Part shown: positions 14,702-59,241 of the stretch, in pieces
Position numbering within the stretch: position 1 is the stretch's first letter
How the letters are laid out: each line of letters starts with the position of its first letter
Assembly (NCBI RefSeq): GCF_000421485.1
Contig: NZ_ATXC01000001.1
Location: 682,001 to 746,000 of the forward strand
Direction: 5' to 3'
DNA from: Desulfurobacterium sp. TC5-1
GTDB taxonomy: Bacteria > Aquificota > Aquificia > Desulfurobacteriales > Desulfurobacteriaceae
Length of the DNA: 64,000 nucleotides
Program-made: the position numbers and the translations under genes
The notes under the pieces: generated by a model
Told to the model about the DNA's origin: nothing
The model's database searches: none
What the model saw: only the letters and a program-made list of their open reading frames with translations

Positions 14702-14718
14702 GGAACGAAACGGAAAAA

Positions 14719-14739
14719 TTGATCGCAGTGTGCGATCAA
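14719..14739. promoter_or_regulatory. Perfect inverted repeat upstream of the integrase
   Basis: TTGATCGCA-GTG-TGCGATCAA is a 9-bp perfect inverted repeat with a 3-bp centre, lying between the integrase promoter and its start codon. Related TTGCGACC and TTGCACC words follow at once. It could be an operator, an integrase arm site or an mRNA hairpin. Confidence 0.55.
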
Positions 14740-14779
14740 TTTGCGACCAATTTTGCACCCATATAGAGGGAGGCATAAA

Positions 14780-30563: not shown

Positions 30564-31637
30564 TTACCTATTTTCAACAACTATCTTGTTATCTCCAATC
30601 AAAAACGTGACTTTTCCGTCAAAAATAACCAGATCAGGCGTTTCAAGACTATTAACATCAATCTTTCTGGTCACCTCCTTTGTTAATATTCTGTCAAATC
30701 CTCTATTAAGAGGAACAAAGACAACAGCACTTTTTATAAAAGTTTTCACAGTTTGCCTTTGAGCTTCAGTTCTAACAGGCACAAATCTTTCTATCCTGTA
30801 CAGAAAAAGTCTTAATAGCTTGCTCTTTTCCGGAACGAAAAAGGAAACAAAAAATAGCGGCGGAAACATTTCCCTTGCCTTATAAATAAACATTTTCGGA
30901 AGATAAATCTCCCTATACTTTGCCTTTTTCTCATCGGGATACATTACGAGACCACAAACTTTTACCGCCCTATCAAGCTCCCTCCACTCATATATGATTC
31001 CACAGCTCATATTTAATTTATGCTTCTCAAGAAAATCCGTAAAAGAAATTCCCCTAACTTTTATCTCTTTTCTAATCAGTCTCACAAAAATAGGAATAGC
31101 TTCTCTTGCATTTACATTTTTCAATCTCTTTGAAAATCTGCTGATACCGGAATTTTGATAGTTAAACGCTAATATTTCAGTTTCTCCAAGTATTCTAATC
31201 ATCAATTCATCAAAAGTTCTGCTGGCTCTTTTTCTTTTGCTCAAAAACACACTTGCAGAAACGTCAAGGCCTTCATCGGTTTCCACTATAAACTCTTCAT
31301 CCTGCTTTTTAAAAAGACAAAAGGATGAGTGAAACCTTCCGTGACCGGGAAAAGAAACCAGATTAATGAATCTTTTATTTCTCTTTAAGTAAAGTTTTAA
31401 AGGCTCACCTCCGGGAAGTTTACATCCACAAGTAGCATAAACGTTAGAACCTTGTTCTCTTGCATCTATCAATCTTTCAAGGATTTCCTGGATAGAAGAA
31501 GAGAGCCTGACGTCCCACCTGCTTTCAATCAGAAACTTTCCGAAAACCTTTCCATCTTTCCATAAAAGAACTTTCAATTCTTTTTCCCGATAGGATTTCT
31601 GCCAACTTCCAGCCTGTATATGCCAGAAGCGTCCCAA
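30564..31637 (-). CDS. DUF1173-like protein A
   Basis: A protein of up to 357 residues related to DUF1173, a family of unknown function found on conjugative elements. The signature is an N-terminal Cys/His block: CGCKLPGGEPLKLYL, then VSFPGHGRFHSSFC, which matches the CxCxxxGxxL...PGTGxxHxxxC pattern and probably binds zinc. The C-terminal part has ERFVPVRTEAQRQTVKTFI, and PDLVIFDGKV, also seen in the second copy at 35453-36679. The first 37 residues overlap the PAP2 gene, so the true start may be a TTG near 31575. Soluble, no signal. Confidence 0.65.
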   Translation of the reverse strand: MGRFWHIQAGSWQKSYREKELKVLLWKDGKVFGKFLIESRWDVRLSSSIQEILERLIDAREQGSNVYATCGCKLPGGEPLKLYLKRNKRFINLVSFPGHGRFHSSFCLFKKQDEEFIVETDEGLDVSASVFLSKRKRASRTFDELMIRILGETEILAFNYQNSGISRFSKRLKNVNAREAIPIFVRLIRKEIKVRGISFTDFLEKHKLNMSCGIIYEWRELDRAVKVCGLVMYPDEKKAKYREIYLPKMFIYKAREMFPPLFFVSFFVPEKSKLLRLFLYRIERFVPVRTEAQRQTVKTFIKSAVVFVPLNRGFDRILTKEVTRKIDVNSLETPDLVIFDGKVTFLIGDNKIVVENR

Positions 31638-35452: not shown

Positions 35453-36679
35453 TCAACCTATTCTAATGTACTCCATCGGACATCCTGGAGGACGAAGTCG
35501 ACAGAAATCCTTTTCAACTCTTTCCTTAACCTTCTTGTACCTTGTGTCCCTGAATCCCATTAATTCTGCAACCTGAAGAGGTTCACCAAAAATCACCAGA
35601 TCCGGATAGTAAGAGAGTCTCATCAAAACCGAAGTTGCACAGGACGGAAGGGAGAGTTTCGCATAATTCTTCGAAATAGAACCAGTAACCACCTTAAAGA
35701 ACCTATTTCCCTGTTTAAGTAAGCTTTCAATTTTCCCTGCTTCGTTTCTACTTTCAATTGGAATGAACGGCCTGCTCCTCTCAAGATAGAGTAGAGGCAT
35801 AAAGAAAGCTCTCGTTATTAGCTTTCCCTTGACAACGTTAATATTAAGAAACTTCCCGGTTGACCCTGCAAACCCATTTTCCCACAAGTCCCAGCCAAAA
35901 ATCTGTCTTTTATGAACTATCTTTTTCCTGTCATTGTAAGTCAGTATCAGACTCTCTCCCGAAATTTCCATAGAATTATGAGAAATCAGATTTACAAATA
36001 GTCTAAAACCTTTAGGGGTCTTCTCATTTAACTTACCTCCCAAAACCGTAAGAACTTTCCCAACGGTTGGTAGAGATAAATTTTTGCTTTCCTTAAGCCT
36101 ATTAATTCCTTTGTTAACGGAATTAAAAGCAAGACCATAAGCATCATCAATGTAACTCAGCATGATCCTTGTGAACGTTAACCTTGGCTTGTTTGAATTT
36201 GTAAGAGGTCGAAGTCTTTCCTCTCTTTCTTCAGTAGAATTGCTATTTGATTCATTTGGAAAGTCCAGTAAAGTAACTTTAATTTCTTTTTTACTCCATT
36301 TTTTCCAGAGAGCTTGAGTATCAACAGACTCACCGTAAAAAGGACAAATCCTGTCATGCTCTGAGGTCTTCTCTGGAAAACTCTTGATATAGAATAACTT
36401 CCCAGATTTAGCTATGATCAAGGGAACTCTTTTTTCTGGAAAAGAACAGGCACAGTAAAGGAAAGTATCTCCCGAAAGTTGCCCATAAACAATGTGGAGT
36501 TTTCTAAGAATCTTCCAGTACTTTTCTCTCCACTTCCTATTATTCTGATAATGGAAATAAATGTTCCTCTTATCTCTTCCTGTTGTAATTGGATCAAGGA
36601 GAGTAACAAGTTCCTTTACGTGCTTTTTAGGAACCTTAAAAAGATCCAAAACAATCTTAACTGATATAAACTCATTCAT
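35453..36679 (-). CDS. DUF1173-like protein B
   Basis: A 408-residue protein related to DUF1173. The N-terminal Cys block reads CACSFPEKRVPLIIAKSGK, then KSFPEKTSEHDRICPFYG, matching CxC...PxxxxxHxxxCPxY. The C-terminal part has PFIPIESRNEAGKIESLLKQ and YYPDLVIFGEP, the same two blocks as in protein A at 30564-31637 and in the family. A zinc-stabilised N-terminal domain is likely. No function is known for DUF1173; its association with conjugative elements is. It is the last gene of a five-gene run that begins with a TumE-type toxin. Confidence 0.68.
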   Translation of the reverse strand: MNEFISVKIVLDLFKVPKKHVKELVTLLDPITTGRDKRNIYFHYQNNRKWREKYWKILRKLHIVYGQLSGDTFLYCACSFPEKRVPLIIAKSGKLFYIKSFPEKTSEHDRICPFYGESVDTQALWKKWSKKEIKVTLLDFPNESNSNSTEEREERLRPLTNSNKPRLTFTRIMLSYIDDAYGLAFNSVNKGINRLKESKNLSLPTVGKVLTVLGGKLNEKTPKGFRLFVNLISHNSMEISGESLILTYNDRKKIVHKRQIFGWDLWENGFAGSTGKFLNINVVKGKLITRAFFMPLLYLERSRPFIPIESRNEAGKIESLLKQGNRFFKVVTGSISKNYAKLSLPSCATSVLMRLSYYPDLVIFGEPLQVAELMGFRDTRYKKVKERVEKDFCRLRPPGCPMEYIRIG

Positions 36680-38360: not shown

Positions 38361-38551
38361 GAATAAATACCTGCACACCGGCATTTTTATAAAAATACCA
38401 AAAGACAGGAATACGCTTACTTTGACGTTATACTGGATTTCCATAACCATGAGCTATCGAATTATTCTGACATTTGCAGTAACTGAAAAAGGCATAGTGT
38501 TGATAGACATTGGCAGTCACGAAATATACGAGTGAAGGGGAGGAAACATCA

Positions 38552-39163
38552 ATGGCCGTTTACTCTTACATTCGCATATCCACGAATAAACAGGAAACGG
38601 AAAATCAGCGATATGAGATTCTCAAATACGCTAATGAGAGGAAGCTCGGGAACATCGACTTCATAGAGGAAACAGCAAGTGGTAGAAAAAGCTGGAAAGA
38701 ACGGCAGTTGGGGAAATTAGTAGAGAGAATCCAGAAAGGGGATATTCTCATAGTTACAGAGCTTTCCCGTCTTGGCAGGTCTATGCTTGAAATTATGGAA
38801 CTTCTCTCTATCCTCCTCAGACAGGGAATAGAACTTCACGTTGTCAAAAGCAGTCAGGTGTTGAAAGACGACTTACAGTCAAAAGTTTTCGCAATGGCTT
38901 TTTCCATAGCAGCCGAGATAGAGAGAGAACTCATATCTCAGAGGACTAAAGAGGCTCTCCAGCGCAGGAGAGCAGAGGGAAAACCTCTTGGCAGGCCCAG
39001 AGGAAGTTATTCATCCAGGCTTGAACGTTATAGGAATCAGATAGAGGAGCTTCTCTCAAAAGGTGTGTCTATTTCTTCTATTGCTAAAATCATAGGAGTT
39101 CCTTACTCTACGGTATATTCCTACGTTCAGAGAAGGAAGGCTGAATTTCTACTCCAAAAGTAA
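38552..39163 (+). CDS. Serine recombinase (resolvase/invertase family)
   Basis: A 203-residue site-specific recombinase. The catalytic domain has YSYIRISTNKQETENQ, where the nucleophile is the Ser of RIST, followed by ETASGRKSWKER, LIVTELSRLGRSMLEIMELL with the Arg pair, and the long E helix (AAEIERELISQRTKEALQRRRA). The C-terminal HTH (GVSISSIAKIIGVPYSTVYSYV) is complete. ATG 38552 is preceded by GGGGAGG. It could be a resolvase that resolves element dimers or the recombinase of a smaller unit inserted here. It stands at the left border of the cargo zone. Confidence 0.92.
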   Translation: MAVYSYIRISTNKQETENQRYEILKYANERKLGNIDFIEETASGRKSWKERQLGKLVERIQKGDILIVTELSRLGRSMLEIMELLSILLRQGIELHVVKSSQVLKDDLQSKVFAMAFSIAAEIERELISQRTKEALQRRRAEGKPLGRPRGSYSSRLERYRNQIEELLSKGVSISSIAKIIGVPYSTVYSYVQRRKAEFLLQK

Positions 39164-43860: not shown

Positions 43861-44220
43861 CTATTTTACAACCTGAAGCACATCTCCCGTAACATCCTGA
43901 ACGTTGGAATCGGAAAGAACCGCTCTTTTGATGAGTATTAAAGAGCGGCCGTCATCAAGCTCTTTTATTCTTTTATCAACTCTTTCAAGATTTTCCTTTA
44001 TACAGGACGAAACATTCTGATTGTTCTGACAAACTTCCTGAACCCTCGACATCACCTTTTGAACGTCAACGGTTTTCATTTCAAGCCTGCTGTTATTTAC
44101 AATCTCTTTACATTTCCTTATTGCAAGGAAGTAAGAAAGTGAAGCTGCTAAAACAATCAAAAGACCGAAAACAAAGTAGTCAACGTATCTATTTTCCATT
44201 TCTTTAGCTTCCATTTCCAT
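43861..44220 (-). CDS. trbI: TrbI-like F-type transfer protein
   Basis: A 119-residue inner-membrane protein with one N-terminal span (YFVFGLLIVLAASLSYFLAI) and a periplasmic domain. The C-terminal segment LILIKRAVLSDSNVQDVTG resembles the end of F-type TrbI (hydrophobic strand, then Pro/Lys-Ala-Val and an Asp-x-Thr). TrbI modulates pilus outgrowth and retraction. Position directly after traC, overlapping it by 17 bases, matches the F-plasmid gene order traC-trbI. Assignment leans on position as well as on sequence. It is the last tra gene before the cargo zone. Confidence 0.7.
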   Translation of the reverse strand: MEMEAKEMENRYVDYFVFGLLIVLAASLSYFLAIRKCKEIVNNSRLEMKTVDVQKVMSRVQEVCQNNQNVSSCIKENLERVDKRIKELDDGRSLILIKRAVLSDSNVQDVTGDVLQVVK

Positions 44221-46693
44221 TTTCCATCTCCACGCAGTACTGAATGGCTTCCGGTAGTGTCATCCCTTTTTCATCCATAAGGGATGAAATCTTTTCCCTG
44301 TCCTTCTTGTCTGTTGTAAACAGGTAGTACATAAACCTATCAAGAACAACTCTCACGAGAGAGCGGCCGAAAGGTGTCATCAAGAAAGCCTCCGAGTATT
44401 CACCCTTCACGGGTGCAATTGACTCCATAAGCATCCATTCAAAGTCAGAAAGGTTCAACACTTCTGATTTCTTTAAGGCGTTGATGCTCGTCGGCTGCTG
44501 CTTCATAAAAATATTGAAACTACTGTTCTGGACGATAATCCTTCCGGCCCTGCTACCTGATTCCCAGAGGTCCTCAAATCCCTGAGTGCCTATAACAACG
44601 GCAGTACCGTGCTTCCTTGCACGACGGTAGAGCTGCTCAATAAATCCGTCTATTCTTGGATCACCAAGAAATTTGTGGGCTTCATCATAAAGAACGATAG
44701 ATCTAAATCCTTTGTGTCTTTTTGATTCTATATATACTTTCCGGGAAATAAAGAAGTTCACCATCATAATCACCGGGTTTCTCAGTTCCGGAACATCTTC
44801 AAGATGATCATACTCAACAACAACAAGAGGCTTCCTGAAATCAACTTCTGCCTTTCCCTCAAAAAACCGACCGTACTGCCCTCTACCGGTATAAGGTTCA
44901 AGTGTTTTTCCGAAATCAACCATCCTGGAATCCCTGAGAGCACTAAAGTAGTCTGCTATATGAGTGATTGAAAGATTACTACCGTACTGCTGATACAAAG
45001 TTCTTATAGCTCTTTCAAGTTCTGCCTTAATTAATTTTTCAAGCCTATCTGACATTTCTCTGCTTTTTGGAGCTCCCATAATGTAGATAACATTGGTCAG
45101 AAATTCCATGAATTCGGACAATTCTTCCTGTGACGTAACAAGAGAAAAGGGATTTATGCAGATGGGATTTTCGGGATCAAATTCAAGCCACTGCCCGCCC
45201 ATCACCTTACAGAAGTTTTCGTACGATCGACCTATATCATTAATAAATACCGTTGCACCGGCTGCTCTGTATTGAAATGAAAGCAGTTGCATTAAAACCG
45301 ACTTCCCTGCGCCAGAAGTTCCTATTACGAAGGCGTTATAGTTTGTCGGTGAATCAAATAGATCCACTCCTACAAGCTGTCCTCTTCTTGAAACAAAAAG
45401 TATTTGCGGAGTTCCCGTTCCTATAAATTCGGCCTCAACCGGGGAAAATGAAGCAACATTATCCGAAAAGAAGATTTTGTCTCTCTTCAGCTCTTCTAAC
45501 AATTCCTTATCCCCGGCAAGGGGAAGTGCCGAAAGGAATACCGGAAAAGAAATATACCTGTCAGGGAAAATCTGAAAACCGGCCGTCCTCCAGAAAGTCT
45601 TAACGGTATCAATCTGCTTTTGCAGCTCGTCCCGGAAAGGTGCCGAAACAAGAAGCGAAAGGCAACATGAAAAGAGTTTCTTCCCTTCTTCAAGTCTGTT
45701 CATTGCAATTGCAAGGTCTTCCTGCTTTGCCTTGAGTTTCGGGAAAAGTCCTCCCGGTAAAACCTGGGACATTACAAGAGCTGCATTCCTTTTAATCTTT
45801 GCGGTTTCGTCTTCCGAAAGTCTGACAACTGTGAACGAGAGGATGAACGGATACTTGAAATTATTTTCATTAAAGAACATATCTCCTAAAAGCTTCGTCA
45901 TATCTCCGAGATGCCACTCTTTAGGAAATGCTGAAACAGAAAGGCTGCGCCAGTATTGATTGTCCATCACAAAATAGTCTTCTTCCACTTCAACTTTTGT
46001 ATCGTAGGCAACAATCTGTGTGTTTATATATTCATCTTCATTATAGTTCCTGTAATGTTCGTTCTCATCATGATTTATGTTTATAACTTCAGACATAATC
46101 TGAATAAGCCGTTCAGGTGCAACCTGAACGGGAGAGAGTCCCATGGCTCTTAAAGAACCTTCAATTTTATTTTTTAGCTCTCCTGCTTCCTTTAAAAGCT
46201 GGCTGAAATCCGTTACCTGCTCTTTTTTGAAAAGTTTAAGAAATGAAGAAACCTTACTGTGATGCTTCAATTTGACGGACACTATCAACCTGAAATTCCT
46301 TACAGTAATGGGAAAATGTCTTGATATTATCTCTTTTGAATGATTTTCAAAAAACCCGGCATGCTGTTCGATGGCTACTTTTAACAGCTCTTCATCCGTT
46401 CGTTTTAAACTCCTGTACACACGGGTTATATCTTTCAGATTTCTTGAAGCAAAGAGAAAAAAGTTAAGGGTTGCTCCTACCGGAAGAGACTCTATCATTC
46501 CTTCTATCATTGTCATTGTTCTCTCTCCGGCAGCCGAAAGGGGAAAACATTCAAAAACGATACCTGCACCCTCGTCGGAAGTAACATAAACACCGAACCT
46601 CGGATCGTAAGCAACGTACGGAAGATACTTTGAGAGAGTTTCTCTATCAAGAAGTTCGTAAAATTTCTCTTTTTCCACGGAGGTTTCAGTCAC
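44204..46693 (-). CDS. traC: TraC assembly ATPase of the type IV secretion system
   Basis: TraC (VirB4 class) is the cytoplasmic ATPase that drives F-pilus assembly. The protein is 829 residues from GTG 46693, which follows GGAGGG and overlaps the traK stop; an ATG at 46738 in frame would add 15 residues without a ribosome site. Walker A is GTSGAGKSVLMQLL, preceded by GVDLFDSPTNYNAFVI, Walker B-like IVLYDEAHKFLG, and a late GTQGFEDLW motif-type segment (VVIGTQGFEDL). The N-terminal region has LPYVAYDPRFGVYVT and FECFPL of the TraC_F_IV family. Full length. Confidence 0.95.
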   Translation of the reverse strand: MTETSVEKEKFYELLDRETLSKYLPYVAYDPRFGVYVTSDEGAGIVFECFPLSAAGERTMTMIEGMIESLPVGATLNFFLFASRNLKDITRVYRSLKRTDEELLKVAIEQHAGFFENHSKEIISRHFPITVRNFRLIVSVKLKHHSKVSSFLKLFKKEQVTDFSQLLKEAGELKNKIEGSLRAMGLSPVQVAPERLIQIMSEVININHDENEHYRNYNEDEYINTQIVAYDTKVEVEEDYFVMDNQYWRSLSVSAFPKEWHLGDMTKLLGDMFFNENNFKYPFILSFTVVRLSEDETAKIKRNAALVMSQVLPGGLFPKLKAKQEDLAIAMNRLEEGKKLFSCCLSLLVSAPFRDELQKQIDTVKTFWRTAGFQIFPDRYISFPVFLSALPLAGDKELLEELKRDKIFFSDNVASFSPVEAEFIGTGTPQILFVSRRGQLVGVDLFDSPTNYNAFVIGTSGAGKSVLMQLLSFQYRAAGATVFINDIGRSYENFCKVMGGQWLEFDPENPICINPFSLVTSQEELSEFMEFLTNVIYIMGAPKSREMSDRLEKLIKAELERAIRTLYQQYGSNLSITHIADYFSALRDSRMVDFGKTLEPYTGRGQYGRFFEGKAEVDFRKPLVVVEYDHLEDVPELRNPVIMMVNFFISRKVYIESKRHKGFRSIVLYDEAHKFLGDPRIDGFIEQLYRRARKHGTAVVIGTQGFEDLWESGSRAGRIIVQNSSFNIFMKQQPTSINALKKSEVLNLSDFEWMLMESIAPVKGEYSEAFLMTPFGRSLVRVVLDRFMYYLFTTDKKDREKISSLMDEKGMTLPEAIQYCVEMENGNGS

Positions 46694-47378
46694 CGTTTCC
46701 CTCCACAACAATAACTTTCGTTTCCTGCCCCGGTTCAAGTTCGTGCCTTAAAACTGCAACCGCCCTTGTCCGATCCGAATCTATAAAATTCTTCTCATCA
46801 ATCCTGACCTTTTGCTTAGCACGAAGCAGAAAAACTTTTACGGTGAAAAGTGCTCCTCTCATTTCCAGGACAAGGTTTCTTGAATACTCTTTAAAATTAT
46901 CAATAACAACATTTGTACTTTTCACCGTGTATCCCGGCGGCGGAACCTCATCAATACCTGCCAGGACAAGCTTTTTCATGGTTTCTTCGTAAGGAGAAAC
47001 TTTCTCAAAAGCAAGAGCTTTTTGTATCTGCAAAACCTTCTTCTTATCTTTATCTTCAACAAAGACAACCTGTGCAGGTATATCTTTAGGATTGAAAATG
47101 AACTGACACACACGGCCGTCCGCGAGAACAACGTAATACTCTGCAGCTGTTTTTCTTCCCAGAACCTTGATAAACACGTTTTTTCCTTCAACCATGTGCC
47201 TGAAAGGTCTTTCTTTCGAATAAACAACTTCTACAACCTTTTCCGGGAAAACGATCCTGTTTATTCCGGTGCGGCTGATTGAAACAACCTGAAAGTCTTT
47301 ATTGTCACACTTTACAAACGTTGCGGCTTTTGATGAAGATGCCGCCAGTAAAAAAACCATCAGCAGTGCTTTTTTCAT
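46686..47378 (-). CDS. traK: TraK secretin-like protein
   Basis: TraK is the periplasmic secretin-like (VirB9 class) component that links TraB and the TraV lipoprotein in the F-type outer-membrane ring. This 230-residue protein has a signal peptide and the typical early motif SRTGINRIVFPEKVVEVV, then strands KNVFIKVLG and YYVVLADGRVCQFIF. Located between the OmpA-like gene and traC. In F plasmid traK precedes traB; here it follows traV, so the gene order is rearranged. Confidence 0.85.
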   Translation of the reverse strand: MKKALLMVFLLAASSSKAATFVKCDNKDFQVVSISRTGINRIVFPEKVVEVVYSKERPFRHMVEGKNVFIKVLGRKTAAEYYVVLADGRVCQFIFNPKDIPAQVVFVEDKDKKKVLQIQKALAFEKVSPYEETMKKLVLAGIDEVPPPGYTVKSTNVVIDNFKEYSRNLVLEMRGALFTVKVFLLRAKQKVRIDEKNFIDSDRTRAVAVLRHELEPGQETKVIVVEGNGD

Positions 47379-47839
47379 TTTTTTACCTCTACTTTTCTTT
47401 TCGTTGGTCCCGGCGGGGGCGGAAGTTCACCCTTACCCTCAACTTTTTCAACAACACCGCCAAGTTTTTCTATAAACTCTGCAACTGTTTGTGCCCTTTT
47501 TTCTGAAAGCCACAGATTGTATTTTTTCGTTCCTATGCAATCGGCATATCCAAGAATTCTGTATTTCTCACCGTGCTTCACAAACCTTTCTATTTTCTTT
47601 TTCTCATCAGGTTTAAGGTAATATCTATCAAAGTCAAAGTAAACGCTGAGAACCTCAGCTTTTTTCTCCTTCACTTTAACGGAAATAGGTACCTTTATAA
47701 TCCTTACAACATGAATCTTTGAAGGCTTTGGACAATCGGCCCTGCATATATAATACCGTGGCGGTGAGTAACTCACCTTATATTCCGTTTTAACCGGCGG
47801 CGGAAAAAGCTGAATTATCGCTGCAACAAGAAACATCAT
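47375..47839 (-). CDS. OmpA-C-domain protein of the transfer operon
   Basis: A 154-residue exported protein with an OmpA-like peptidoglycan-binding domain: VYFDFDRYYLKPDEKKKIERF, then ILGYADCIGTKKYNLWLSEKRA, which gives the conserved Asp and Arg contacts for diaminopimelate. The start ATG 47839 (AAGGAGAGAAA upstream, ATGA overlap with the upstream stop) gives a short hydrophobic signal (FLVAAIIQLFPPP). F plasmid has no OmpA-domain gene in this position. It may anchor the TraV-K-B ring to the wall. Confidence 0.82.
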   Translation of the reverse strand: MMFLVAAIIQLFPPPVKTEYKVSYSPPRYYICRADCPKPSKIHVVRIIKVPISVKVKEKKAEVLSVYFDFDRYYLKPDEKKKIERFVKHGEKYRILGYADCIGTKKYNLWLSEKRAQTVAEFIEKLGGVVEKVEGKGELPPPPGPTKRKVEVKK

Positions 47840-48183
47840 TTTCTCTCCTTGAGAGGATAGGAAATGTTTTCCGGCTTTCTTTTTAAGTTTTCTCGCGAAA
47901 AGATCCACTTTCCGTTTCTTATCACAGTATAGATGTATTCTCCCTGGTGAAAATCCCCGTGATCATCGACGTACGGGAGAACAAGTATTCTGACCTCCTG
48001 ATCCTGTAACCTCACGGGAACAAGAGGCTTTGTCAATACTTCTTTTTCTATCTGAACAATATCTTTTGATACCTTCAGTGGCCGGGTTTCGTTGCAGGCA
48101 GTACATACGGTACGAAGCTTATAATCCTTTTCCCCGCATGAAGCCAGAAGCAGAAGAACAGCTAACAGAACGGCTTTTTTCAT
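47836..48183 (-). CDS. TraV-like lipoprotein, C-terminal part
   Basis: A 115-residue lipoprotein with lipobox LASC. The C-terminal segment RLQDQEVRILVLPYVDDHGD, continuing FHQGEYIYTVIRNGKW, matches the end of TraV proteins (R-x-x-VRIW-x-APWxDxDGDLH). TraV is the VirB7-class lipoprotein that anchors the outer ring. Two extra Cys (VCTACN) near the N-terminus could form disulphides. The N-terminal TraV features are found instead in the overlapping gene upstream (48180-48365), so TraV seems to be split. Confidence 0.78.
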   Translation of the reverse strand: MKKAVLLAVLLLLASCGEKDYKLRTVCTACNETRPLKVSKDIVQIEKEVLTKPLVPVRLQDQEVRILVLPYVDDHGDFHQGEYIYTVIRNGKWIFSRENLKRKPENISYPLKERK

Positions 48184-48365
48184 CTCTCACAACTCCCGCA
48201 GTATTTTTCAGGGTGTTCCTGAACATCCTGATAGACATCCGACAGAGAACCGCATACACCCTCTCCCGTACCACTCACACAGAGAGGTTCCTCTCTGTAC
48301 GGAAGCAAGATACAGGAAGATACAAAAGGTAAAACAAGTACAAGCAAAAGAGCTATCTTTCTCAC
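48180..48365 (-). CDS. TraV-like lipoprotein, N-terminal part
   Basis: A 61-residue lipoprotein with lipobox VSSC, followed by CVSGTGEGVCGSLSDVYQDV. This G-x-C-x-S-x-x-x-VY pattern is that of the N-terminal domain of TraV. It starts with GTG overlapping the traB stop and overlaps the next lipoprotein gene by ATGA. Both halves have their own lipidation signal, so each would be anchored in the outer membrane separately. Confidence 0.7.
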   Translation of the reverse strand: MRKIALLLVLVLPFVSSCILLPYREEPLCVSGTGEGVCGSLSDVYQDVQEHPEKYCGSCER

Positions 48366-49483
48366 TTCACTTCTCCCTTTGAAAGAGAAATTCCCTTTTC
48401 AACTATGATGTTAACCTTTCTACCGGCATTGATTTCAACAACCGGCCAGGTTTCCTCGGCCAGCTTCGCATATACTTCGGCTAATTTTTCGGCCGCTTTT
48501 CCCGCCCCGGAAAATGCTGACATTTTCAGAGCATCTTCAGGCTTTACCGTTGACGTTGTTCCGGTAGGTGAAACCATCACAACCTGAGAAGCCTGCTGGA
48601 ATGCTGAAGCAACACCTTCAAGAAAACCGGAAACAAGCATTCTTGCAAGAAGTGCTCCCTGACGGGAAACAACAATGCCTCTCAGGCCCACCTTGCCGTC
48701 TTCACCGGTAACATAGCCCCGAAGCGGCATTTCGTATCTTGTCCCGTTTTCGGCCACACATGAAATGGCCGTAGTCCGCAGGTATGCCCTTTCCGAGGAG
48801 AGATCTCCGTAGCCTTCGGCAAGGACAAAACATTTTTTCACGTCTTCCTTCCAGTCGTTCGGAAGCTGTGCAAAATCCGTAAGTTCTATAAGAACGGGAT
48901 GAGGATCGGACTTTGCCTTCATTCCCGTCGGAGCATCAAGGCCGTTCAAAAGAACACCGGTAAAAAAGCTCCCGGCCGGAATATACTCTTTATCGGGAGT
49001 TTTTTTCTGCCTCTGTTCTTTTTCGGACTCTAACGGCTTCTCCTGAACCTCTATCCTTGTCACGCCGATATCCGGAATCACCATCTCTTTCTTTTTCCGT
49101 GCTGCTGCGGCAGAAGGAGGTGGCGGAGGTGGCGGAGCCGTGATCTTTTTCTCGGGCGGTGGGGGCGGCGGTGGTGCTGCAAGATTTTCAAACTTCGGTT
49201 CTTTTTTCTTTTCATTTTTCAATTCTTTTATCTGATTTTCAAGGTTCTTGATAGTGATGGAAAGTTCCTGGATCTGTTTTTGCGCTTTTGATTTCCACTC
49301 TTCTTCAATTGTCTTCTTCATCTGCTTTTCGGTGTCAACTTTTACAATTTCTTTCTTCTTTTGAGGTTTTTCAGGAGATGAGAGAATTTCCGGAAGAACG
49401 ATCATCACAAACAACCCGACAACCGCAACCCCAACCAGAATTCCGTACTGCTTCAGTTTCGTGCCTTTATATTTTTTAAGCAT
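48362..49483 (-). CDS. traB: TraB (VirB10-class) pore protein
   Basis: TraB spans the cell envelope and connects the inner and outer parts of the transfer channel. The 373-residue protein has an N-terminal cytoplasmic tail, one span (YGILVGVAVVGLFVMIVLP), a coiled coil of about 45 residues, two Pro-rich blocks (PPPPPPPEKK and PPPPPPPSAAA), then the VirB10-like domain with AGSFFTGVLLNGLDAPTG, FVLAEGYGDLSSERAYLRT and GLRGIVVSRQGALLAR. The order and motifs are those of F-type TraB, somewhat shorter than in F. Overlaps traE by eight bases. Confidence 0.93.
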   Translation of the reverse strand: MLKKYKGTKLKQYGILVGVAVVGLFVMIVLPEILSSPEKPQKKKEIVKVDTEKQMKKTIEEEWKSKAQKQIQELSITIKNLENQIKELKNEKKKEPKFENLAAPPPPPPPEKKITAPPPPPPPSAAAARKKKEMVIPDIGVTRIEVQEKPLESEKEQRQKKTPDKEYIPAGSFFTGVLLNGLDAPTGMKAKSDPHPVLIELTDFAQLPNDWKEDVKKCFVLAEGYGDLSSERAYLRTTAISCVAENGTRYEMPLRGYVTGEDGKVGLRGIVVSRQGALLARMLVSGFLEGVASAFQQASQVVMVSPTGTTSTVKPEDALKMSAFSGAGKAAEKLAEVYAKLAEETWPVVEINAGRKVNIIVEKGISLSKGEVK

Positions 49484-50030
49484 TGTCCTTCACCTCTAAA
49501 GAGAGAAGCTGAAACTGGCCGTTTCTAACCGTGTATTTGATTAAGACGGTAGCTTTTTCGCTTTTTATCTGCGTTCCTTCCACGTATTTCTTTAAGATTC
49601 CGGAAACCAGAATCTGATTTTTTCCAAAAGAAACACTTCTGGGATAGAAAACCTGTGAGATTCCTTCCCGTGCTATGAAGGCTTCATATTGCTGCATTGC
49701 TTTTTTAAAATCAGGTAGCGCGGAAGGCGCAACAAAGGGAAAAAGAAGAGAGTGCTGATACGCAGCTGTCTCGGGAGAAACTGAAAGATACTTATCGGCG
49801 ATAAAGTTCCCCATCATTTCCACATATGAAGACGATAACTTATCTCCGGAAACCCAGAACTCTTTATTTACGTTTGGAGGCAAAATGATTACCTTTTGAT
49901 TCTTCACTTTTCCTATCAGAACAACCGCAAAAAAGACATTGGTGGCCGCAAGGGCGATAACAGCCACCGCAAGAGCCTGAGAGTACGAAATTAAATTGTC
50001 CCAACTATTTCTGAATTTCTGCCAGTTCAC
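49476..50030 (-). CDS. traE: TraE (VirB8-class) inner-membrane protein
   Basis: A 184-residue protein with a cytoplasmic start, one span (ALAVAVIALAATNVFFAVVLIG) and a periplasmic NTF2-like domain, as in F-type TraE. Family features are the SxSYVEMMGNFIADKYLSVSPETA stretch (in pieces) and strands VLIKYTVRNGQFQLLSLE at the end. It starts with GTG inside the traL stop (GTGA). TraE is required for pilus assembly at the inner membrane. Confidence 0.88.
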   Translation of the reverse strand: MNWQKFRNSWDNLISYSQALAVAVIALAATNVFFAVVLIGKVKNQKVIILPPNVNKEFWVSGDKLSSSYVEMMGNFIADKYLSVSPETAAYQHSLLFPFVAPSALPDFKKAMQQYEAFIAREGISQVFYPRSVSFGKNQILVSGILKKYVEGTQIKSEKATVLIKYTVRNGQFQLLSLEVKDNA

Positions 50031-50305
50031 TCCACCAACTCCCTTTTCCAGGATTCGGGAAATCTTTTATTTTTGCTATTGTAAAGACCGTGCCAGTAGA
50101 GAAAGTGCCATAAAAAACCGGGTTGAGATTGCGTCTTCAGTTTTCCGTAAGCCTGCTCCAGAATCAATCCCACACCGAGCCCTATTAAAAGCCTGTCAGT
50201 CCACAGTCCTATCATGATGGGAGCCATGAAAAAAATCAAATCGTCAAGCTCCCACCATAAAAACTGCGGCTGAGCGTTCAGGTATTTAGGAACATACCTT
50301 CTCAT
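50027..50305 (-). CDS. traL: TraL (VirB3-class) protein
   Basis: A 92-residue membrane protein. The start ATG 50305 overlaps the traA stop as TGATG. The sequence RRYVPKYLNAQPQFLWWELDD, then a two-segment hydrophobic region (LIFFMAPIMIGLW, RLLIGLGVGLILEQAYGKLK), then HFLYWHGLY, matches the TraL family (YPxxLNxPPxxxxWxxDE and a terminal W-x-x-G-Y/L). It is part of the inner-membrane complex for pilus assembly. Confidence 0.87.
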   Translation of the reverse strand: MRRYVPKYLNAQPQFLWWELDDLIFFMAPIMIGLWTDRLLIGLGVGLILEQAYGKLKTQSQPGFLWHFLYWHGLYNSKNKRFPESWKRELVE

Positions 50306-50607
50306 CAGAACGTACCCGTATAAGCAGAGTCGATCGCTCCCGGAATAAATCCAAGAGACAAACCGAGAAGAAAGAGAAACGCTGCACCACCGATACTTCC
50401 GTTTTTTGCAGCAATGATGGCCATGAGCATGAAGAACGCGCTCCCGATCTTGCCCGGGTACCCCGTGAACCATGCCGCAATTTCACTCCACCAGCTACTG
50501 AAGTAGCTTCCTCCCGTCCCCGCCATTGCAGATGTAGTAAGCACGAGAACAAAAGAAAGTGCTACACCGGTGTAAAAACCGATTTTAAAAGCCTTTTCAT
50601 TCACCAT
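50305..50607 (-). CDS. traA: TraA-like pilin
   Basis: A 100-residue pilin precursor: N-terminal charged part, a first hydrophobic segment ending SAMAG as a leader cleavage site, and a mature part of about 70 residues with two spans (GSAFFMLMAIIAA, GGAAFLFLLGLSLGFIPGAI) joined by a short basic loop (KNGS). This is the layout of F-type pilin. The mature chain would begin near GTGGSYFSSWW. It is the first gene of the main transfer operon, right behind a strong promoter. The S26 peptidase at 18866-19333 is a candidate for its processing. Confidence 0.85.
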   Translation of the reverse strand: MVNEKAFKIGFYTGVALSFVLVLTTSAMAGTGGSYFSSWWSEIAAWFTGYPGKIGSAFFMLMAIIAAKNGSIGGAAFLFLLGLSLGFIPGAIDSAYTGTF

Positions 50608-50665: not shown

Positions 50666-50694
50666 AATATACCTTTTATATTCTATTTTGTCAA
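50666..50694 (-). promoter_or_regulatory. Promoter of the main transfer operon with element-wide site
   Basis: Minus strand TTGACA (50694-50689), 17 bases, TATATT (50671-50666). The -35 and spacer read TTGACAAAATAGAATATA. The TGA in the -35 box is the stop of the coupling-ATPase gene upstream. A second TTGACA-like word is absent, so this is the only visible promoter for traA to trbI. Confidence 0.88.
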
Positions 50695-53105
50695 CTAAAG
50701 ATTTCAACCTTTCCGCTGTTCCATGGAGCAACACTGACCACGGCCCCGTCAAATCTAACATATAGTTTCGGAGAAGTTCCTTTAAAAATATCCTTGTCGT
50801 CAATTCTCAGGCCCTTTATCTTTACGACTTCACCATCAAGCATCCTTGCAAGAACATCGGGATGCTTGGGTTTCCCGATCATGTACTTTTGCCCTTTCTC
50901 GTACGAAACGTATATGTAACCGCCGTAACAGAACAGAGAACGGCTTTTTCCGTATTTTGTTGTTGCGGCCTTTTCAAGATCCCTTTTCAGTTTCGCTTTA
51001 TCAAGTTTTACGCCGCTCGCCTCAACGATTATTCTTTTTTCTTCCTCTTTTCTGGTGTCCTGGTCTGCTTTCTTGAGGATCTTTAGTAGTTTTTTCAGGT
51101 ACGGATCGTACGGATCTCCTGCGTCCTCATGGTGCAGTGCGATTAAAGAAGTAATTACATTTACCTTATCTTTCTTTATTCCAAAAGACTCCGCCAGCTC
51201 CTTTATGTATCCGGCACCTTCCTCAGGATGCTTTTCCGTATCGTAGTTTTTTTTCTCAAGCAGCTCCTTTCCTATATCGTGGGTAAGAGCCGCCATAAAG
51301 AGCAAAGACAAATCTTCTACTGTCAACTCTTTCTGGCCATACTCATAGGCTTTCTCAGCAGTAGCCAGAAGATGTTCTACAAGTGAAATCTCCTTCAGGG
51401 GATTATCTCCAAGAACAACTGACGGAGATTGCTGCATTGTTGAGAAAATTTCAACTATCTTACGAAAGAGAGGAACCAGATCTTCTGTTATTCTCCCTTC
51501 ATACTTTTCTAAAAAGTCTTTTAGATTAAGAGGAATTACTTTCTCTTTTTTCTCTGCAGGTTTTTCTTTGCCCTTTCTTTCTTTACTTTTTATTTCTTCC
51601 TCTATCACCTCTTTCGAAGAATAGTTTTCCTTTAATTTTTCCATGTTAACAACAAGAATCTTTACATTGTCCTTCGTAACGTAGTTCTCTGCTAATTTGA
51701 AAAGGTTGGCTATCACAAAGTCATCATACTTTTGAGACAGAGCTTCTCTAACCCTATCAAGCTCTTCTTCACTCTCAATAGCAACTATCTCAACGTGTTT
51801 TTCGTCTTTTAAAAGAGGCATGTACCCCCTGTACCACTTACCCTGTATAAAAGCTATATAATGCCCCGGTTTAAGTTTTTCAAAGAATTCAGGAGGAACG
51901 AGATAGTCTTCAAGGTAAGTCACAAAGATTGAGCCTTCTCTTACCATTACTCTTGGTTTCTTCACCTTTCCAGAAAGCTGACTGAAGTATTTCTGGCTTT
52001 CAACCGAACCAAGATACATGATGATTTTTGCACCTGACGATTCCATGATTGCTTCCGTTCGTTCTTTCCCTATTTCTGCAACAAGATCCGAGTAGCTCTG
52101 GGTAAAACCCGTAAGGCTCACGTTGAATTCCCTGAAAAGCCCAAACGCAGTTTCAAATCCCCTGTAGGCAACCTGTTTCATCTCATCAATGACAATCCTC
52201 AGCTGAGGCTCTATTTTCCGTCTTCTATTTGCATAATAACCGACAATCTGCTGAATGTTTGAAAGAAGAATCCTTGAAAGTGCAACTGCCATTTCTCCGA
52301 GTACCTGCTTGTTTAAAAACGCAAACATTAAAAGGGAACCTTTTTGTATTCTGTCCCAGAGAAGATTTCCCCTAACGTTGATCAACCTGCCAACGTCCCC
52401 GGTAACAACTTTTGTTAGATACGTTCTTAAAGAACCGTTTACCCGCGGAAAATACTGCGGGTCATATGCCTTGAGCTTGTCAAGAACTCTCATAGCATCG
52501 TCAACATACCTGAAATTTATTTTTGATGAAGAAACAAGATCCCTTTCAATAAGTCTGTGAAGGTTCTCTATAGAGGTCTGATTGATGTACTCGTAGATGT
52601 GAGAGAAGGTTATCTCTTTTTCGCCTCTTGCAAACAGTCCTAAAGCTATCGCATAGGTTATCTCATAGGCTATCTCTTTGAAGAAAGGTTCCTTTCCCTC
52701 TTTAATTCCTGACACAACAACCTCTGCTATTTGTGCAGGTTCAAGATTGTAGAGGGGATTGAAACGAAAGGAAACGTTCGTGTATGTCGGGGCAAAGAAT
52801 ATAGGACCTTTCTTTTTATCGTAGAGAATGCCCTTCCTGTCACAGGCAAGAAGAAACGCCTCAAGCCAGGAGGCTGAACCTTTCGGATCTATAGCAAGAA
52901 CCTGATATCCGGCCTCTATGCTCTGATAGGTGAGAACCTTTATAAATTCGGTTTTTCCCGAACCGGAAGCACCGAAGCCTACCATGTGATATGTTGGCTT
53001 ATCATAATAGAGAAAGCCGTAGTTATTTTCTACATCCTTTGCAACGCCAAGATAGTACTCCTCATTTGCATCATAGAATCTATTTTTCCTCTTTCTCCTG
53101 AACAT
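50691..53105 (-). CDS. TraD-type coupling ATPase fused to an HD domain
   Basis: An 804-residue protein. Residues 1-430 form a coupling-protein (TraD/TraG, VirD4-class) ATPase: Walker A GASGSGKT at 45-52, then AIDPKGSASW, Walker B VIDEMKQ at 305-311, and GFTQSYSDL with the sensor Gln near 336. No membrane spans precede it. A charged linker (residues 495-525) follows, then an HD phosphohydrolase-like domain: His578 (VEHLL), His609-Asp610 (THDIGK), His626, His658/659 (ALHHEDAGDP) and Asp681 (LKKADQDTRKEEE). The C-terminal 100 residues are beta-rich and unassigned. MobH relaxases have a comparable HD core, so this may be a coupling-relaxase fusion. Confidence 0.85.
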   Translation of the reverse strand: MFRRKRKNRFYDANEEYYLGVAKDVENNYGFLYYDKPTYHMVGFGASGSGKTEFIKVLTYQSIEAGYQVLAIDPKGSASWLEAFLLACDRKGILYDKKKGPIFFAPTYTNVSFRFNPLYNLEPAQIAEVVVSGIKEGKEPFFKEIAYEITYAIALGLFARGEKEITFSHIYEYINQTSIENLHRLIERDLVSSSKINFRYVDDAMRVLDKLKAYDPQYFPRVNGSLRTYLTKVVTGDVGRLINVRGNLLWDRIQKGSLLMFAFLNKQVLGEMAVALSRILLSNIQQIVGYYANRRRKIEPQLRIVIDEMKQVAYRGFETAFGLFREFNVSLTGFTQSYSDLVAEIGKERTEAIMESSGAKIIMYLGSVESQKYFSQLSGKVKKPRVMVREGSIFVTYLEDYLVPPEFFEKLKPGHYIAFIQGKWYRGYMPLLKDEKHVEIVAIESEEELDRVREALSQKYDDFVIANLFKLAENYVTKDNVKILVVNMEKLKENYSSKEVIEEEIKSKERKGKEKPAEKKEKVIPLNLKDFLEKYEGRITEDLVPLFRKIVEIFSTMQQSPSVVLGDNPLKEISLVEHLLATAEKAYEYGQKELTVEDLSLLFMAALTHDIGKELLEKKNYDTEKHPEEGAGYIKELAESFGIKKDKVNVITSLIALHHEDAGDPYDPYLKKLLKILKKADQDTRKEEEKRIIVEASGVKLDKAKLKRDLEKAATTKYGKSRSLFCYGGYIYVSYEKGQKYMIGKPKHPDVLARMLDGEVVKIKGLRIDDKDIFKGTSPKLYVRFDGAVVSVAPWNSGKVEIFS

Positions 53106-53571
53106 CTCTTAATTCCTTCCTGAAGGTTCTGTATGCACGGGCGGCATACGAATACGTTGTTTTCGCTATTCTGGCCGCCTCAAGATAATCAATGTTTTTG
53201 CGAAAACATTCTCTTAGAATGTAGAACTTGTCACCTTTCGGTAATTTACACATCCTTTCGGTGGCAGCCTTTAACGGCTTTTCACTATCTTTTATGTTAA
53301 GGAAGATTAAGTCCACCAGGGTTTTAACCGAAAGGCCATGTACTTCTGCCCTCTTCCTTATTTTTTCCTTCATTTCCTTCTTGACTTTTAAAGGATATAC
53401 CTTCTCTGAACCCGGATTTTCAATAAGTCTAAGTCTCAATTTACTTTTCAAAAAATACTCTATGTAAGCCCTGATTACGAAGGACCCGGGAAGGTTCATC
53501 CGCTTTCCTATTTCCATTGCTTTTCTGTATGTCGTTTTGGATACATTTATCGTTTCAAATCTTTTTTCCAT
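53080..53571 (-). CDS. DNA-binding protein upstream of the coupling ATPase (RHH/HTH)
   Basis: A 163-residue basic protein with two RHH-like units: an N-terminal one (FETINVSKTTYRKAMEIGK, NLPGSFVIRAYIEYFL) and a second (VYPLKVKKEMKEKIRKR, GLSVKTLVDLIFLNI). The C-terminal third resembles an HTH (IDYLEAARIAKTTYSYAARAYRTF). Such tandem folds occur in relaxosome accessory proteins (TraY/TraM-like). Its gene lies between the repeat arrays and the coupling ATPase, with which it overlaps by 26 bases, so binding to those repeats is the natural guess. Confidence 0.62.
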   Translation of the reverse strand: MEKRFETINVSKTTYRKAMEIGKRMNLPGSFVIRAYIEYFLKSKLRLRLIENPGSEKVYPLKVKKEMKEKIRKRAEVHGLSVKTLVDLIFLNIKDSEKPLKAATERMCKLPKGDKFYILRECFRKNIDYLEAARIAKTTYSYAARAYRTFRKELRDVQEKEEK

Positions 53572-53596
53572 AAAACCTCCTGCGGTGTATGTATTT

Positions 53597-53613
53597 TATA
53601 TTCTATATTGTCC
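53597..53613 (-). promoter_or_regulatory. Element-wide site upstream of the 163-residue gene
   Basis: Minus strand GGACAATATAGAATATA, one or two changes from consensus, 26 bases before the start codon. The -10 match (CATACA after 17 bases) is weak. Confidence 0.55.
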
Positions 53614-53651
53614 TTAAGGATTTGTGAAGAGCGTGAAGGTGAAATGGATAC

Positions 53652-53754
53652 TGAAATAGGGAACCGGGGGGTCTGAAATAGGGAACCGGGGGTCTGAAAT
53701 AGGGAACCGGGGGGTCTGAAATAGGGAACCGGGGGTCTGAAATAGGGAACCGGG
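53652..53754. repeat. Five iteron-like direct repeats (21-22 bp)
   Basis: Units starting at 53652, 53674, 53695, 53717 and 53738 share TGAAATAGGGAACCGGGG and are 22, 21, 22 and 21 bases apart, alternating six and five Gs before TC. Spacing of two helical turns places a protein on one face of the DNA. They fit iterons of a replication origin or binding sites of an oriT. No spacers of equal length with differing sequence occur, so it is not a CRISPR. Confidence 0.85.
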
Positions 53755-53800
53755 TTAACACACGCAAGGAACTGCAAGAGCTGGCGCCCGGAACCTCCTT

Positions 53801-53846
53801 ACAGACTATAATACAGACTAATAGAACAGACTATTTAAACAGACTA
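53801..53846. repeat. Four short direct repeats ACAGACTA
   Basis: ACAGACTA occurs at 53801, 53813, 53826 and 53839, spaced 12, 13 and 13 bases. This second array is followed by a GC patch and then an AT-rich stretch (53865-53900), the usual neighbours of an unwinding site. Confidence 0.75.
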
Positions 53847-53893
53847 TAAGGACGGCGGCGAAACTTTAAATAAATCTCTTTCTTTATTTTAAT

Positions 53894-53909
53894 TTTTTGC
53901 GCGCAAAAA
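53894..53909. repeat. 16-bp palindrome TTTTTGCGCGCAAAAA
   Basis: A perfect palindrome at the edge of the AT-rich stretch beside the repeat arrays. It may be part of the origin, or a symmetrical protein site. Confidence 0.6.
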
Positions 53910-53921
53910 TTTTTGAAAAAT

Positions 53922-53938
53922 CGGGGCCGGAAGCCCCG
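53922..53938 (-). terminator. Terminator of the PIN-protein gene
   Basis: On the minus strand CGGGGC-TTCCG-GCCCCG is followed by ATTTTTC. It lies ten bases behind the stop of the PIN gene. Confidence 0.75.
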
Positions 53939-53947
53939 AAATACTTT

Positions 53948-57515: not shown

Positions 57516-57929
57516 CTACTTACCAATCACATAATAAAACCTTGTTAGGATTTTACCTTTTTCTGCAACTGTATCTAATCTTCGGAACCCATTGCCGGTA
57601 TAGAATCCCACCAGCTTTTGTTTGGCTTTAGAATCCCCGTCTAAAACTTCAACTATTATTAGTTTACAGCCTAAATTTTCAAAACACTCCTTAATTTTTG
57701 CTTTTGCAGTGTCCAAGATGTGATCACCAGGGAGATCATCAGGGTTAATTTCCTCATGTCTACCTAATTGACCTATAAGATAAGCAGGTAAAAATTTAGA
57801 AACTCCCTGTTTTATTTCTTCTTTTGTTGGAGGATAATTATAAAAAAGTTCTTTTAGTTTAGATCGAGACAAAGAAACATTCTTCAGGTTAAGTTCCAAA
57901 GATTTTAAAGAAACTAAACTACCCCTCAT
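57516..57929 (-). pseudogene. GNAT acetyltransferase fragment cut by the TnpB element
   Basis: A 137-residue frame whose C-terminal half is GNAT-like: DTAKAKIKECFENLGCKLII, EVLDGDSKAKQKLVGFYTGN and GFRRLDTVAEKGK, matching the acceptor end of GNAT toxins or acetyltransferases in which Y-x-x-x-GF is conserved. The N-terminal third of the fold is missing, and the frame starts inside the end of the tnpB gene. I interpret this as a GNAT gene disrupted by insertion of the TnpB element. A shortened functional protein cannot be excluded. Confidence 0.6.
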
Positions 57930-59241
57930 TAAAATGAGAGGGATTTTGTAGTCTCAAAAAGAGACTACAGGGTGGTTTATCACCCTCTCCCATCACAATG
58001 GGTATCCAGGAGTTTACTCTCCCTCTAATCCACTTGAATTGGTAGAAGGAGACAATTTCAAGAGAGAGATTTTTCTTCCCTCTCTTTAGTATGTTAATTG
58101 CTCCATTTAAATCTGCATTTAATTTGCCACAATTTTCACAGACTACATAGTGTTGATGAGGTCTTTTAATATGATTACCACACTTAAAACACCTTGAGCT
58201 GGTATAGTGTTCTGGAATCGGTTTTATCCCGATTCCAGCTTCAGATAGCTTTTCTTTGAGTCTTTTGAGGGTATAATTTCTTATCCAGAAATTGTGTAGG
58301 AGAACATTAAGTTTTCCAAAGTCTTTATCCTTTCTGATTCCTGTTAAGTCTCCTATATAAATTTTTTCTACTCCTCTTGAAACACATATGTCAATTACCT
58401 TGTTAAGCATTGAGTTGATAGACTGCTTCAGCTTCTTATCTCTCTTGATGTAGAGTCTTTGAAGTTTCTTGGAAGTTTTAGTTCCACTTCTGTTAAGGAT
58501 TGACTGATATGTAGCTATCTTTCTATCCCATCTCTTGTAGTCTTTTATAAGCTCTCTGCTTTTGAATTGAAAAACTTCTATTCCTTTATCTGTTTCTACT
58601 GCAAGTGTCAAGAAATTACGAATCCCAAAATCTATCCCTGCTAATCTTTTTCCTAATGGTTGTTTTTCTTCCTGCTGGAGATTAACGGTTACATAGCACC
58701 ACCACTCTCCAGCTTTACAAAAAACTTCAGCTCTACCAAAGTTTCTAATATTTTCGTAATAAATTGAATACTTAGCTTTGACCTTCAGTCTCTTACCATT
58801 TATGTCTTTAGGAACTGTTAGTTCAAATTCGTAGTTTCCTAACCGATAACTCCTATCTGTTTTTATGTAGATGTTCATAGGGAGAGTTTGCTTCTTTTTC
58901 CTGTCTTTCTTGTATTTCGGTGGAGAAACTTTCTTTATGTTAGGCGGTAGTTTTTCTTTCTTTTCTAACTTTTTGAGATTTAAAAACGACTTCCAGTCTT
59001 CTGAAAGTTTTTTCAAAACTTCCTGAGCTATATCTGAGGGGAGAGCTTCGTATTCAGGTAAGTCTTTAGCTAAGCGATAAAGCGTTCCGTTTGATACTTT
59101 AACATTTCCAAAGGAAAAATACTGCTGTCTCAAAATATAGTTAACACGATTGTAGAGGTAGCTACATCTTAACTGTAGTTGTCTCAGTTTTTGTTTCTCT
59201 TCCCCAGTAGGATAGAGTTTAACCTTGACTATCCGTTTCAT
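57919..59241 (-). CDS. tnpB: TnpB, IS605-family RNA-guided nuclease
   Basis: A 440-residue TnpB. The RuvC site is complete: Asp204 in GIDFGIRN, Asp298 in IYIGDLTGIR (Asp in place of the more usual Glu, as in many members) and Asp377 in NADLNGA. The zinc ribbon has CFKCGN (351, 354) and CENCGK (368, 371). The N-terminal OrfB helix-turn-helix is intact. TnpB cleaves DNA guided by an RNA from the element's right end and supports its retention. No tnpA is present, so this copy is non-autonomous or immobile. Its 3' codons form two hairpins. Confidence 0.93.
   Translation of the reverse strand: MKRIVKVKLYPTGEEKQKLRQLQLRCSYLYNRVNYILRQQYFSFGNVKVSNGTLYRLAKDLPEYEALPSDIAQEVLKKLSEDWKSFLNLKKLEKKEKLPPNIKKVSPPKYKKDRKKKQTLPMNIYIKTDRSYRLGNYEFELTVPKDINGKRLKVKAKYSIYYENIRNFGRAEVFCKAGEWWCYVTVNLQQEEKQPLGKRLAGIDFGIRNFLTLAVETDKGIEVFQFKSRELIKDYKRWDRKIATYQSILNRSGTKTSKKLQRLYIKRDKKLKQSINSMLNKVIDICVSRGVEKIYIGDLTGIRKDKDFGKLNVLLHNFWIRNYTLKRLKEKLSEAGIGIKPIPEHYTSSRCFKCGNHIKRPHQHYVVCENCGKLNADLNGAINILKRGKKNLSLEIVSFYQFKWIRGRVNSWIPIVMGEGDKPPCSLFLRLQNPSHFNEG
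57925..57968 (-). ncRNA. Candidate guide-RNA (omega RNA) hairpins at the TnpB 3' end
   Basis: Two perfect hairpins lie in the last 17 codons of tnpB: GTAGTCTC/GAGACTAC at 57948-57968 (loop of five) and CTCATT/AATGAG at 57925-57938 (loop of two). Guide RNAs of TnpB are processed from this position and end with the guide just beyond the right end. The exact boundaries cannot be set here. Confidence 0.45.

Follow-up and report, generated by a model that had tools for sequence, protein, structure and literature searches.

A soluble coupling ATPase joined to an HD domain in an F-type ICE of Desulfurobacterium, and its possible role in DNA transfer

The fusion gene and its element

The stretch of DNA analysed here (the window, 64,000 nucleotides) covers positions 682001 to 746000 of contig C1 (G000:C1) in the 1.65-Mb genome of Desulfurobacterium sp. 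TC5-1, a member of the Desulfurobacteriaceae (Aquificota). A 195-bp att repeat (98% identity), holding the 3′ half of tRNA-Leu(CAA), bounds an element at 14557 and at window coordinate 75410: attL (14557 to 14751) lies over the 3′ part of the tRNA-Leu(CAA) gene (14528 to 14614), and the attR copy lies beyond the window, at window coordinates 75217 to 75410 (L002 11217 to 11410). A tyrosine integrase gene, read by eye, sits beside attL on the forward strand (14741 to 15796). Judged by the repeat pair and the integrase-like gene, this is a complete ICE, about 60.66 kb long, in tRNA-Leu; it is of the F type. Pfam profiles identify, on its reverse strand, TraL (50027 to 50473; E = 8.5e-21), TraE (49476 to 50030; 4e-36), TraB/TrbI (48362 to 49483; 3.9e-31), the lipoprotein TraV (47836 to 48183; 1.6e-12), the secretin TraK (46686 to 47378; TraK_C, 1.8e-14), the VirB4-type ATPase TraC (44204 to 46738; 5e-71) and TraF (19317 to 20093; 2.6e-40). 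TraG and TraH are encoded beyond the window, and the ICE further encodes a primase, an HTH protein and a ParM-like protein. Also in the ICE are two TnpB-like genes (57919 to 59241 and L002 342 to 1760) and a serine recombinase gene (38510 to 39163), all read by eye, two divergent DUF1173-like proteins (30564 to 31637 and 35453 to 36679), and three tandem copies (~294 bp, 83 to 98%) of a small acidic ORF (L002 4170 to 5329). Directly downstream of attR, Hmd ([Fe]-hydrogenase)-like and Hcg cofactor-like genes were recognised by eye (L002 12145 to 18965), here in a bacterium.

The gene at 50691 to 53105 (reverse strand, ATG start) encodes a protein of 804 aa which, according to its ORF, Pfam and AF2 models searched with Foldseek, combines a T4SS coupling ATPase with an HD domain. 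Residues 1 to 440 (51786 to 53105, reverse strand) form a soluble VirD4/TraD-type ATPase domain that matches TraG-D_C (7.6e-10) and T4SS-DNA_transf (7.9e-7) in Pfam over residues ~105 to 382, as well as NCBIfam SXT_TraD (TIGR03743) at 1.1e-23, under that model's cut-off. Walker A lies at residues 43 to 53, with K51, and Walker B at 303 to 308, with D307-E308; a VirD4/TraD ATPase domain bearing both motifs places the protein in the T4CP superfamily. The full-length AF2 model retrieves TrwB (PDB 1e9s) at E = 2e-12, along with Cag-beta, DotL and VirB4 structures. No hydropathy window reaches the TM threshold, and the lack of an N-terminal transmembrane anchor is typical of the T4CP sub-lineage to which the fusion belongs. 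The Pfam and TrwB matches, the Walker motifs and the hydropathy profile thus bear out the initial annotation, which had described a TraD/VirD4-class ATPase without membrane spans combined with an HD domain. The fusion shares with TraD/TrwB-type coupling proteins the ATPase fold, Walker motifs, TraG-D_C segment and position in an F-type tra operon, but differs from them in its missing membrane anchor and its added HD and C-terminal domains. The HD domain, delimited by Pfam, a family alignment and AF2, occupies residues 575 to 690 (51036 to 51383, reverse strand) and contains seven ligand residues, while the C-terminal domain (residues 697 to 804; 50694 to 51017, reverse strand) is conserved in the family and was modelled at low confidence (pLDDT below 50, no usable fold).

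A reverse-strand gene (53080 to 53571) that shares 26 bp with the fusion gene encodes a small RHH-like DNA-binding protein, whose matches to Arc (0.019) and to the BfmA/BtgA mobilization N-terminal family (0.034) are weak; it is a candidate relaxosome accessory protein. Upstream of this operon, the intergenic region holds five iterons of 21 to 22 bp, CTGAAATAGGGAACCGGGGG (53651 to 53757, forward strand), which are phased, number zero by chance expectation and have no other copies in the window. Four ACAGACTATAA-like repeats, 12 to 13 bp apart (53801 to 53853, forward strand), stand beside an AT-rich stretch and an inverted repeat, and the whole repeat region (53572 to 53947) is a candidate oriT and/or oriV. 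On the other side of the fusion gene, before traL, lies a gene for a small protein (50305 to 50607, reverse strand) likened to TraA pilin by resemblance and position only. The resulting order (RHH protein, T4CP-HD, pilin-like protein, traL, traE) may be compared with mobH-traD-...-traL-traE in pCAR1; by this analogy, the fusion sits where mobH-traD would sit, upstream of traL-traE.

Fused and unfused partners

The same architecture was recovered by tblastn from the Aquificota genomes G026, G091 (756 aa), G062 (751 aa), G067 (770 aa) and G076, the last with two contig-end copies, and the fusion occurs at six or more Aquificota loci. These homologues share 37 to 41% identity with the window protein over the alignment; G091 and G076 are Aquificaceae MAGs, and G062 is a MAG filed under Aquifex aeolicus. 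A scan of genome contigs returned only the Aquificaceae fusions and weak matches to other ATPases. Such recurrence rules out an assembly or stop-codon artefact. In a T4CP tree the fusions form one clade (93/100), which the Thermovibrio T4CP adjoins (80/88). No TraI_2 match at E ≤ 0.01 was found in the six genomes with the fusion, and several other Aquificota genomes do have TraI_2 matches, some of them within conjugative loci. Divergent MobH-like proteins were also seen in other Aquificota (L044 6683 to 7711, L045 6681 to 7700, L051, L049, L057, L052, L055 and L046); their TraI_2 scores fall short of the cut-off or only just exceed it, and the two tested do not reach that of NF041494; typing tools would therefore probably overlook them. 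In the open-access literature, we found no paper on relaxase-coupling protein fusions or on conjugative relaxases in Aquificota.

Elsewhere the two halves are encoded separately. Among the plasmids found as nearest plasmid relatives of the T4CP, an HD protein is encoded directly after the T4CP gene in Desulfosarcina, Geobacter pSD, Pelobacter pPRO1 and Campylobacter upsaliensis, with a one-base overlap in two cases. A tblastn search of plasmids with the fused HD part returned nothing; the unfused partners were reached through the T4CP and through the Desulfosarcina HD protein, which as a query returned exactly these four plasmids. The next gene downstream of the T4CP gene in Nitrosophilus labii and C. 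iguaniorum is annotated as a diguanylate cyclase, and its N-terminal 400 residues correspond to the T4CP-linked HD protein; in both plasmids a GGDEF domain bearing the motif GGEEF is inserted ahead of a C-terminal domain resembling the one in C. upsaliensis. The T4CP of G015 has a TM region of its own, and after its gene come one ORF and then the gene for an HD protein, while on Thermovibrio pTHEAM01 the HD protein (fused-profile match, 1.6e-19) lies in a different tra operon of the same plasmid. All seven plasmids with an unfused pair are classed as non-mobilizable by PLSDB/MOB-suite, and MOBP, MOBH and MOBF models found no match in them. Since the same T4CP and HD protein occur unfused side by side, the fusion represents the merger of two partner genes that belong together. 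EAL or GGDEF genes lie beside members of this T4CP lineage (L035 7161 to 8331, L030 8151 to 8975, L058 12300 to 13573, L059 3553 to 4293 and 13229 to 15520, L061 9241 to 11643), and c-di-GMP control of conjugation is possible in the lineage.

The unfused systems also bear on membrane anchoring. In three Campylobacterota plasmids, the gene immediately preceding that of the T4CP encodes a protein with three to four TM segments, and this protein is homologous to the N-terminal part of the G015 and G052 T4CPs (hhalign, E = 8e-12). Of the preceding genes noted at L062 6607 to 7320, L063 6298 to 7107, L059 10484 to 11299 and L061 6463 to 7275, those in Campylobacterota encode such a TM protein, the pattern of a split coupling protein, and those in Geobacter and Pelobacter encode a protein without TM segments. 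In the ICE, a four-TM protein (20041 to 20775, reverse strand; TM count, and blastp matches to homologues in G026 and G067 at 2e-13 and 3e-11) is a candidate for the detached membrane anchor of the T4CP. In G026, the fusion gene is directly overlapped at its 3′ end by the gene for this protein's homologue; no homology between the four-TM protein of the window and the Campylobacter anchor was detected.

Affinities of the HD domain

The HD part matches Pfam HD (PF01966) over residues 576 to 682 at E = 7.1e-11, with 42.9 bits against a gathering score of 22, and each metal ligand predicted at the outset is present at its position (H578, H609, D610, H626, H658, H659 and D681), which together place it in the HD superfamily. 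The H-HD-H-HH-D ligand set is kept in all 13 members of the T4CP-linked HD family. AF2 models the domain well (pLDDT mostly 80 to 97), and Foldseek relates the model to generic HD hydrolases only, none under E = 0.001.

A closer affinity, to the core of MobH relaxases, had been proposed in the initial annotation, and the profile search confirmed the general HD family and gave no match of the fusion protein to TraI_2 (PF07514) or to the MobH model NF041494. The same models recover pCAR1 MobH, used as a positive control, at 3.7e-151 and 3e-99; NF041494 also matches proteins of G052 (1e-15) and G021 (5e-6), and gives no match to the HD proteins of the window, G026, Thermovibrio, Desulfosarcina, Geobacter or C. 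upsaliensis. TraI_2 additionally matches Thermotoga, Lactococcus and Methanocaldococcus controls, above cut-off in two of them, and for this reason we did not accept a TraI_2 match confined to an HD part as evidence enough for a relaxase. The 3H motif, which is required for cleavage in the MOBH relaxase GGI TraI (PMC12857230), is missing upstream of the first HD ligand in every member of the T4CP-linked family (0/13), against a histidine pair at that place in 10/10 MobH and MobH-like comparators. Conversely, the family has the distal HH typical of ordinary HD enzymes, which most of these comparators lack. Assignment to MobH was rejected on the absence of the 3H motif and of any TraI_2 or NF041494 match. 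What the fusion has in common with MOBH proteins (pCAR1 MobH, GGI TraI, SXT TraI) is a domain of the HD superfamily, including the HD motif itself (H609-D610), adjacency to TraD in F-type elements and the general HD context; it differs in the features just named and in being fused to the T4CP or, in its relatives, encoded downstream of it. In hhalign the C-terminal domain scored above all 60 shuffles against the MobH C-region, a result that is not significant, and C-terminal profile comparisons between MobH-like subgroups are equally non-significant.

Among curated profiles, the HD family matches Cas3″ HD, Cas10/Csm1, HDIG, GlnD and Phn-HD, in every case below cut-off except for HDIG with the G026 and Thermovibrio HD proteins. 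The best matches of its members are mostly to the Cas3″/Cas10 DNases, with HDIG and GlnD scoring nearly as high. For the fusion, cas3_HD matches at 2e-7 (31.3 bits against a cut-off of 43.45) and Csm1 at 1.5e-6 (27.2 bits against 170), so that the HD part falls short of the curated cut-offs for a Cas3″ or Cas10 HD nuclease; the PADLOC Cas3 model matches it at 6e-8, and its top match among PDB sequences is a Cas10 ssDNase (E = 9e-4). With Cas3″ and Cas10/Csm1 the domain shares an H-HD-H-HH-D type of metal site as well as these best or near-best matches, but it has other partner domains, no CRISPR context and sub-cut-off scores. A tree of 52 HD cores separates the T4CP-linked family plus MobH from 29 decoys in 72% of bootstraps; two Cas10 HDs adjoin that group with weak support, and the 27 other HD proteins stand apart (the decoys include the Cas10 gene L024 of G007 and the YhaM-like L053, L054 and L005). 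We read the T4CP-linked HD family as lying nearest to DNA-cutting HD enzymes while lacking the defining features of MOBH, to which it is possibly sister. HD-GYP and HDIG phosphohydrolases share the HD fold and ligand pattern, and c-di-GMP genes occur near some relatives, but the fused proteins give no HD_5 match and read HHEDAGDPYDP in place of HHExxDGxGYP, which rules out an HD-GYP c-di-GMP phosphodiesterase.

A possible role in processing the transferred strand

The observation that no other relaxase is visible in 49 kb of the element can be extended, with the models tested, to the whole element as far as attR: it contains no separate MOBH, MOBP, MOBF or MOBQ relaxase. Relaxase (MOBP), TrwC (MOBF) and MobA_MobL (MOBQ) gave no match in the element or the genome, and TraI_2 gave a single sub-threshold match elsewhere in the genome (0.389); the genome-wide search covered these four families. 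Pfam was run on the bulk of the element's unassigned ORFs, the rest being mostly recognisable, and revealed no relaxase domain, leaving several ORFs without a family. The initial annotation had named as grounds for refutation a relaxase beyond position 64000 together with an HD part that matches only nucleotide phosphohydrolases; neither was found.

The likeliest reading, to which we give an even chance, is that an HD DNA nuclease tethered to the coupling ATPase performs the relaxase's job. A DNA nuclease role is favoured because no tested relaxase occurs in the element and the HD partner recurs with the same T4CP; because DNA-cutting HD enzymes dominate its curated-profile matches and the tree places the domain, weakly, with MobH and Cas10; and because the fusions form a clade with a full ligand set throughout, no TraI_2 protein in their genomes and the gene position of mobH-traD. 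Against it, HD domains are functionally promiscuous, with HDIG and GlnD profiles scoring nearly as well as Cas3 and Cas10, the c-di-GMP genes near several related T4CPs and the GGDEF domain inserted into two HD partners fit signalling, the 3H motif on which MOBH cleavage depends is missing, and an unrecognised class of relaxase could hide among the element's unannotated proteins.

The two roles first considered for the HD domain have fared unequally: DNA processing is the better of the two, and regulation by an HD phosphohydrolase is rather unlikely. In the latter case, the domain would act on a nucleotide signal (for instance c-di-GMP or a linear product) to gate the coupling ATPase, and an unrecognised protein would nick the DNA. 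The neighbourhoods give this some substance, with EAL and GGDEF genes near the T4CP in G067 and Thermovibrio, an EAL gene in G026, and, in N. labii and C. iguaniorum, an EAL gene in the tra operon together with a degenerate HD-GYP and the HD-GGDEF protein; the near-top scores of HDIG and GlnD point the same way. However, the fused proteins lack the GYP motif and HD_5 match, no GGDEF or EAL gene was noticed in the ICE described here, the HD partner would duplicate the separate EAL and HD-GYP proteins encoded on the same plasmids, and the elements would be left without any relaxase. It is unlikely, too, that the domain serves the pump as an accessory ssDNA nuclease, which would cut the strand once transfer ends or trim it, while a relaxase of unrecognised class among the unannotated genes starts the process: the similarity to Cas3″/Cas10 and the several ORFs without a family would suit such an arrangement, but a non-exhaustive search saw no relaxase candidate common to the elements, whereas the HD partner is common to them. 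A genuine, if divergent, MobH relaxase joined to TraD, a reading to which the mobH-traD adjacency of pCAR1, the grouping in the HD tree and the common context P-(A)S...GL/SL..H...HDxGK...AD would lend themselves, is very unlikely given the profile results, the distal HH pair in place of 3H and C-terminal domains that are not demonstrably related.

If the tethered HD domain is indeed the DNA-cutting enzyme, it would bind two divalent metals and cut a single strand of the transfer origin, which may lie in the iteron region (53572 to 53947) or elsewhere, perhaps aided by the RHH protein. The attached hexameric ATPase would then capture the freed strand and drive it into the F-type channel. Being part of the pump, the enzyme would remain in the donor cell, and no covalently bound relaxase would accompany the strand. 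With the 3H motif missing, the nicking chemistry would have to differ from that of MOBH. MOBH relaxases may themselves form no covalent intermediate, and their recruitment to the T4CP is unexplained, according to a 2025 review (PMC12857230); our proposal that no relaxase accompanies the strand is consistent with that remark. More broadly, and with confidence that stops somewhat short of even, we suggest a class of relaxase distinct from MOBH: an HD nuclease regularly paired with a soluble coupling ATPase in the F-type elements of three or more phyla, and forming one polypeptide with it in Aquificota, such that a single machine would cut and pump the strand, which would enter the recipient without a covalent pilot protein.

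Were this true, it would be an unrecognised way of starting DNA transfer, in a deep-branching, heat-loving bacterium, and would supply a candidate relaxase for F-type plasmids and ICEs that typing tools score as non-mobilizable, changing mobility scoring in Aquificota, Campylobacterota and Thermodesulfobacteriota. The same review treats the delivery of DNA by MOBH relaxases to the coupling protein as an open question (PMC12857230), and a pump with its own strand-processing domain would give one testable answer. Separately, pQBR103 of Pseudomonas fluorescens SBW25 encodes beside its T4CP gene an HD protein (L066 6452 to 7969) with a MobH-like PASVGHHH...H motif. Plasmids of the pQBR103 group are reported to transfer although no relaxase family can be identified in them (PMC13391042, a 2026 paper), and this HD protein is a candidate relaxase.
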